Origin: Halanaerobiales bacterium
GTDB taxonomy: Bacteria; Bacillota; Halanaerobiia; Halanaerobiales; M55B127
Direction: 5' to 3'
Length of the DNA: 47,300 nucleotides
Assembly: GCA_018334565.1 (NCBI GenBank)
Contig: JAGXLU010000014.1
Span: forward strand, 1 to 47,300
Shown: in pieces, positions 46,132 to 47,300 of the stretch
Numbering within the stretch: position 1 is the first letter of the stretch
How the letters are laid out: each line of letters starts with the position of its first letter
The notes under the pieces: model-generated
The model's database searches: none
Told to the model about the DNA's origin: nothing
Seen by the model: only the letters and a program-made list of their open reading frames with translations
Made by a program: the position numbers and the translations under genes

Positions 46132-46208
46132 CTGGCTATGGCGCAGCTTGGTAGCGCGCTTGCTTCGGGAGCAAGAGGTCCCCGGTTCAAATCCGGGTAG
46201 CCAGACCA
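46132..46208 (+). tRNA. tRNA-Pro (anticodon CGG)
   Basis: A complete cloverleaf with encoded CCA: acceptor CTGGCTA/TAGCCAG, D-stem GCGC, anticodon stem CTTGC/GCAAG with loop TTCGGGA, T-stem CCCGG/CCGGG. Anticodon at 46166-46168 reads CCG. C1-G72 and A73 are proline identity features. Confidence 0.96.
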
Positions 46209-46326: not shown

Positions 46327-46368
46327 AAAAGAGTGATCTCTGATTAATGTTCAAGATCACTCTTTTTT
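46327..46368. terminator. bidirectional terminator between tRNA-Pro and the peroxiredoxin gene
   Basis: A 13-bp perfect stem AAAAGAGTGATCT / AGATCACTCTTTT with a 14-base loop. The plus strand ends in a T-tract. It sits 6 bases beyond the peroxiredoxin stop codon on the minus strand. Confidence 0.8.
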
Positions 46369-46374
46369 AATACC

Positions 46375-46824
46375 TTATTCTTGATCTAAACTCTCAATAT
46401 ACTCCACTATTTTCTCAGCGTGACCAGCTACTTTCACTTTATTAAATATCTTTATCACTTTTTGTTTTTTAGAAATTACAAAAGTCGTTCTTTTAAATAT
46501 TCCCATAAAGTTAAGGATGCCAAATTTTTCTGCTAACTTTTTATCGACATCAGCCAATAAAGGATATGTCAAGTCATATTCTTCTGCAAATTTTCTGTGA
46601 GAATCTACCCCATCTTTGCTTACACCTATAACTTTTGTCTCTAACCCCTCCAGGGTTTTTAGCTGCTTTTGAAAGGCAACTGCTTCCTTTTTTCAGCCAG
46701 GTGTATTATCTTTAATATAAAAAAACAACACCAATCTTTGATCTGAAAAATCTGCACGATTATATTCATTTCCACTTTGGTTTTTTAAACAAAAGTCAGG
46801 CATCTTATCTCCTACTCTAATCAT
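46375..46824 (-). CDS. selenocysteine-containing peroxiredoxin (BCP/PrxQ-like), TGA read as Sec
   Basis: One continuous frame of 149 residues except for a TGA at 46695-46693. It starts MIRVGDKMPDFCLKNQSG with GGAAG upstream, reads LVLFFYIKDNTPG, then TGA as residue 44, then KKEAVAFQKQ, GVSKDGVDSH and ends EYIESLDQE. In bacterioferritin-comigratory peroxiredoxins the context is TPGC-TKEA, so TGA falls exactly on the peroxidatic cysteine. The resolving Cys of CTKEAC is Val here. Two hairpins follow the TGA (46690-46672 and 46662-46641); which, if either, is the SECIS is unclear. The alternative is a nonsense mutation, but the rest of the gene is intact. Probable role: hydroperoxide reduction in the cytosol. 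Confidence 0.8.
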
Positions 46825-46979
46825 CTAAACACTTCCTTTCATTTTTAAAATAAATAGTGAAAAGTTATGCTATTTAAATCATCTTCTATATATCAATATT
46901 GGAGATTTCTGTTAGATATCCTCTTTATTGATATACAAAATCATTAGTTAAAATTTTATAAAATAAATAATAGCCTGTA

Positions 46980-47300
46980 TTATAGGTTGGAATGACCACC
47001 GCCGCCATCCAACACAATTGAAACACCATCTAGATAACTTGACCATTTAGAACAAAGAAATGCTACCAAATTACCTAATTCTATTGGATCTCCTATTCTT
47101 TTAATGAAATATTTTTACTTCTGTGCTTGAGTGCTTCCTCATAAGTTTTAAATTTAAGATCCTTGACCTGTTTTTCAAGCAGATTCTTTAATCTATCTGT
47201 TTCATGTAAACCCTGTAGTATTGCATTAACTCTTATTTTAGGTAGTGAACTACTCGGCATTGAAATACCGAGCTTCATAGTCGCTTGATCTTATGGGACA
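46980..47300 (-). pseudogene. short-chain dehydrogenase/reductase remnant (runs off the window)
   Basis: C-terminal part of an SDR enzyme. One frame reads IRVNAILQGLHETDRLKNLL, and after a frame change near 47096 another reads KRIGDPIELGNLVAFLCSKW through YLDGVSIVLDGGGGHSNL, matching the usual SDR order (RVNAI-PG, then RxG-P-EL-VAFL, then DGG). Upstream of 47278 the frame meets a stop and does not resemble the catalytic Ser-Tyr-Lys part. Broken by at least one frameshift, unless a sequence error is involved. Confidence 0.7.

Follow-up and report, generated by a model that had tools for sequence, protein, structure and literature searches.

A predicted selenocysteine-containing PrxQ/BCP peroxiredoxin of the Halanaerobiales and a candidate two-hairpin signal downstream of its UGA codon

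A PrxQ/BCP peroxiredoxin frame interrupted by a single TGA

The window analysed here is a 47,300-nucleotide stretch from a Halanaerobiales bacterium, a halophilic anaerobe (contig JAGXLU010000014.1, positions 1 to 47,300). Its reverse strand carries, at 46375–46824, a frame of 149 amino acids closed by a TAA codon and interrupted by one in-frame TGA only (46693–46695, reverse strand). This TGA is codon 44, with the surroundings NTPG-TGA-KKEA, and places residue 44 at the peroxidatic position of a TPGU motif (residues 41–44). A ribosome-binding site of Shine-Dalgarno type, AAAGGAAGTG (46830–46839, reverse strand), stands immediately 5’ of the ATG, and a terminator-like hairpin follows the gene on the same strand (46327–46366; folding energy -18.1 kcal/mol, z -4.8). 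When the TGA is read through, the product matches the Pfam families AhpC-TSA (PF00578, 5e-37) and Redoxin (1e-19) over nearly its full length, its AlphaFold2 model reaches a pLDDT of 95.8, and the closest solved structures are those of Bcp/PrxQ proteins. The frame, ribosome site, start, fold motifs and terminator described in an earlier sequence-only reading of this DNA are thus all in place, and its expectation that routine annotation would recover only the C-terminal 65 codons is borne out, as an ORF caller using the normal code returns just a 65-aa C-terminal ORF.

Of the 37 ORFs in the window, 8 end in an ordinary TGA stop with 0–24 open codons behind it, against 105 at codon 44; this difference argues that the interruption is not a chance arrangement. 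One other TGA in the window is equally open, and it is antisense to a long ORF. Upstream of the gene, on the same strand, two short out-of-register pieces (46985–47278) appear by eye to be the remains of a short-chain dehydrogenase, and a tRNA-Pro (CGG) gene (46132–46208, forward strand) faces the peroxiredoxin gene. In L018 the upstream gene differs from that of the window. Visual inspection of the 5’ leader of the window’s gene suggested an inverted repeat, but L018 does not conserve it, and it was set aside.

Orthologues, selenocysteine machinery and active-site residues

Members of the class, here Halanaerobiales and their relatives (the named relatives being Halanaerobiales metagenome assemblies), were compared at the active site. 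Codon 44 is TGA in all 14 members examined, that is, in the window and 13 other genomes, with identities running from 93% down to about 40%, and the remainder of the protein is conserved. Homologues elsewhere that use cysteine carry it at the same codon (TPGC), and in the alignment their Cys falls exactly on the TGA, as had been claimed for the catalytic position of BCP/PrxQ proteins. Since the TGA is kept in 13 orthologues of other genomes, sequencing error is excluded, which also counters the concern that resequencing might return TGC or TGT. An origin of the codon by nonsense mutation in a Cys gene, or by sequencing error, with the gene a pseudogene, would fit the degenerate remnants just upstream and the single in-frame stop that usually marks decay. 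The shared TGA in separate assemblies already refutes this reading, and the conservation of the remaining protein and the presence of structured synonymous sites after the TGA only in TGA genes speak against it as well; its probability is negligible.

The host genome holds the machinery needed to decode such a codon. On contig C57, selA, selB and a tRNA-Sec gene with a UCA anticodon are mutually adjacent, and the same contig carries a selD in which the catalytic codon is likewise TGA, so that the search for selA, selB, selC and selD proposed in the sequence-only reading finds all four; the selB is the only one found in this genome. Among the 14 genomes with a TGA-containing PrxQ gene, selD is present in every one and selB in 12; the two in which selB was not detected (G006, 57% complete, and G038, in 300 contigs) both have a selenocysteine-type selD, and we take the missing selB to be assembly gaps. 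Decoding of the UGA as Trp or some other amino acid, or general read-through with no selenium involved, would account equally for a frame that is open whichever residue is inserted, yet TGA is a normal stop elsewhere in the window, tRNA-Sec, SelA, SelB and a Sec-SelD are all present and the codon occupies the place of the catalytic Cys, which leaves this reading scarcely any probability. The same genome contains a second Sec peroxiredoxin, of the AhpC type (L025:1501-2106, contig C55), with a TGA at the peroxidatic position (TFVUPTE); its usual C-terminal resolving-Cys site reads GEATPSGW, and TGA-containing AhpC-type homologues occur in many genomes of the class.

On this evidence the gene at 46375–46824 very probably encodes a selenocysteine-containing PrxQ/BCP peroxiredoxin. 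Judged from sequence, its standing as a selenoprotein is near certain, and the chemistry expected of it follows from the family. Sec-containing peroxiredoxins are, as the earlier reading had stated, already known: the family, defined by a TxxU motif and COG1225 (Bcp), is tabulated in PMC9312934 and PMC13188914, Cys-to-Sec changes in peroxiredoxins are described in PMC1794560, and the account in PMC9312934 refers to an experimental member from Eubacterium acidaminophilum (Sohling et al. 2001). The present protein is a new member of that family. Neither PMC9312934 nor PMC13188914 contains the string ‘Halanaerob’. The tree is compatible with a single as well as with a repeated acquisition of Sec in PrxQ.

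The second cysteine typical of these enzymes had been reported as absent, and the comparison agrees. In atypical 2-Cys PrxQ proteins a resolving Cys stands five residues after the peroxidatic one, and many Cys forms have it; position U+5 is V here, and among the 20 Sec forms read it is V, I, D, E or Q and never Cys. Nine of these 20 have no Cys whatsoever. Because no Sec form carries a resolving Cys at +5 and several are Cys-free, the peroxiredoxin is predicted to be a one-Sec enzyme. A cysteine that the earlier reading did not mention, Cys12, is invariant in the window’s genus and absent from other lineages; we refrain from calling it a resolving residue, given that it is invariant in this genus only and that relatives do without it.

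Two conserved hairpins downstream of the UGA

The consensus bacterial SECIS, as modelled by bSECISearch, has a G in the first two loop positions, at 16–37 nt from the UGA (PMC13188914). Some SECIS elements are known to fail it (PMC13188914), and in one test at least 13% of the known selenoprotein genes escaped the consensus tool (PMC12013277). For the window’s gene, the earlier reading had singled out positions 46695–46640 as the place for such an element; RNA structure is indeed present there, but it takes the unforeseen form of two hairpins, not one. The proximal hairpin (46661–46681, reverse strand; nt 12–32 after the UGA), which we call hairpin A, folds as AGUUGC-CUUUCAAAA-GCAGCU and its loop does not start with G. 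The distal hairpin B (46643–46657, reverse strand; nt 36–50) folds as AACCCU-GGA-GGGGUU and presents a G-first apical loop 41 nt from the UGA. The stem-loop thus lies where the consensus model expects one, downstream of the UGA, while its loop rule is split between two elements, with the G loop at 41 nt, beyond the published range, and the hairpin inside the range lacking the G. A comparison with Rfam yielded nothing meaningful.

The folding energy of 24-nt segments after the UGA was compared with that of synonymous recodings of the same peptide. The 14 Sec-PrxQ genes show two troughs, at nt 10–33 and nt 31–54 (mean z -3.0 in each), and return to near 0 beyond nt 60; in 24 Cys homologues z is near 0 at both positions. 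The window’s gene gives a weak signal for hairpin A (z -1.46, p 0.11) and a strong one for hairpin B (z -3.72, with p 0.0145 relative to synonymous draws). Hairpin A, which is strong outside the window’s genus, has its loop at the usual distance, 17 nt after the UGA; the middle of this loop falls at or close to the codon for the conserved Phe51 (nUUUn or similar), and the loop does not begin with G. The distal hairpin is found in 13 of the 14 PrxQ genes at exactly 41 nt, as ACCCU-GGA-GGGGU or GCUCU-GGA-AGAGC. Across the 14 genes 98.6% of the cells of the distal helix are paired, and three of the five base pairs vary at both positions in a compensatory manner. L123 (genome G036), which has the TGA and hairpin A, is the one Sec-PrxQ gene in the class to lack the distal GGA hairpin. 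We conclude that the two hairpins are conserved features of the Sec genes, missing from Cys homologues and held by synonymous codon choice, a conclusion that is well supported.

Two other readings of this region were put aside. Our first interpretation, in which hairpin A alone was a G-less SECIS, was revised once RNAalifold and the synonymous profile revealed the distal hairpin. An alternative proximal fold with an AGUU loop 11 nt from the UGA (GGAAGC-AGUU-GCUUUU) can be formed in L019 and L020, but L021 lacks it by inspection; the window also allows a pairing GC-AGUU-GC.

Hairpins in other selenocysteine genes

The Sec-FdhA and AhpC-type genes of the class have one hairpin, mostly with the loop-start G at 17–19 nt and with loops of AGUU (AhpC-type) or GGUC/GUC (FdhA). 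The Sec-selD genes take two main forms: one has a single hairpin with a G-loop at 16–20 nt; in the other the proximal hairpin is G-less and a strong second hairpin, with its GUN loop at 33 nt, lies behind it. Their synonymous profile has two peaks (z -3.05 and -4.08), and in 39 genes, chosen by the presence of the distal core, 94.9% of the distal cells are paired against 83.9% in shuffled sequences. In selD, presence of the distal hairpin is associated with a proximal loop lacking the G (24/30 versus 4/24; Fisher p 5.8e-6, a value that is optimistic in that the 54 sequences are distinct but related). Four selD genes hold both a G-loop proximal hairpin and a distal one. In L187, the selD of genome G019, a G-loop proximal hairpin (GGC, 17 nt) is accompanied by an apparently decayed distal hairpin, and this gene is possibly a transitional form.

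When the length of hairpin A is subtracted from the raw spacing of the distal loop, the remaining distance is 18–22 nt in 11 of 13 PrxQ genes and 14 nt in the other two; the effective spacing in selD is 19–22 nt and single-hairpin genes have 17–19 nt, with the proviso that the Sec genes compared are related and do not amount to independent tests. The GrdA genes of the class (L218-L247; context CFVU) show no clear simple hairpin within 57 nt after the UGA. Their SECIS elements may belong to a further type, and SelB here may accordingly tolerate other shapes.

Discussion

The observations can be assembled into one scheme. SelA, SelD and tRNA-Sec, all encoded in the genome, would supply the Sec-tRNA, which SelB would bring to the UGA at codon 44 under the guidance of an RNA signal just downstream. 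In the finished protein, the selenolate at residue 44 would attack a peroxide bound by the TxxU site, and the resulting selenenic acid would be reduced by an outside thiol partner, for instance a thioredoxin- or glutaredoxin-like protein; an external reductant would be needed because there is no Cys at U+5 and related Sec forms are Cys-free. As to the signal, we propose a bipartite SECIS in which the distal hairpin, 33–41 nt from the UGA, would bind SelB, and the folded G-less hairpin between would absorb the extra length, so that the SelB site would come to lie about 20 nt from the UGA, as in single-hairpin genes. The layout occurs in Sec-PrxQ genes of the class and in many selD genes across the wider phylum, and the division of labour between the hairpins is put forward as a hypothesis. 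We put the chances that this model of the signal is right at about even, and prefer it because the length-corrected spacing is close to the single-hairpin value.

A selenoprotein in which the proximal hairpin alone is the SECIS, SelB accepting G-less loops while the distal hairpin slows the ribosome or serves in some other way, is the more serious of the competing accounts, and we consider it rather unlikely. Hairpin A lies at the usual distance and is strong outside the window’s genus, and it is the sole hairpin of L123; on the other hand, the other Sec genes of the class mostly retain the loop G, a single selB was found in the window’s genome, and in the PrxQ genes and most two-hairpin selD genes the sole G-loop hairpin is the distal one, whose occurrence tracks the loss of the proximal G. 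The converse, that only the distal hairpin acts and the proximal one is a by-product of codon choice, seems improbable: the window’s own hairpin A is indeed not significant, but in the other Sec-PrxQ genes and in selD this hairpin is strongly selected at synonymous sites, and it is the subtraction of its length that brings the spacing near that of single-hairpin genes.

At the level of the protein, the gene extends the known Sec-peroxiredoxins by one lineage. Of greater interest is the insertion signal. A description that fits all bacterial SECIS elements has proved elusive. If the bipartite model is true, it could explain some of the known selenoprotein genes overlooked by the consensus model, and a second SECIS class with a simple rule (a G-loop hairpin plus a folded spacer) would be directly open to test and would make selenoprotein annotation better. 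In the literature searched, largely open-access papers, no account of a bacterial SECIS built from two hairpins was found.

Set beside known systems, the gene resembles the Sec-Prx proteins of the TxxU type in its AhpC-TSA/Bcp fold, its TPGU selenocysteine and the Sec machinery of its genome, and differs from them in a G loop placed at 41 nt behind an extra hairpin and in belonging to a lineage unnamed in the two reviews. With the Cys-containing PrxQ/BCP enzymes (Bcp1 of S. solfataricus, 3drn; PrxQ of X. campestris, 5ima) the protein shares its fold, at a TM-score of about 0.9, and the surroundings of the active site, whereas the peroxidatic Cys is here replaced by Sec and the resolving Cys at +5 is absent. 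The host’s own AhpC-type Sec peroxiredoxin (L025/L188) likewise has Sec at the peroxidatic position, but its sequence is of the AhpC type and its UGA is followed by one canonical hairpin with the loop AGUU at 17 nt. Finally, the bSECISearch consensus and the PrxQ gene have in common a hairpin directly downstream of the UGA, and the distal GGA fits the loop rule; unlike the consensus, the proximal hairpin here is G-less, and the hairpin that bears the G loop stands 41 nt off with the other hairpin between.
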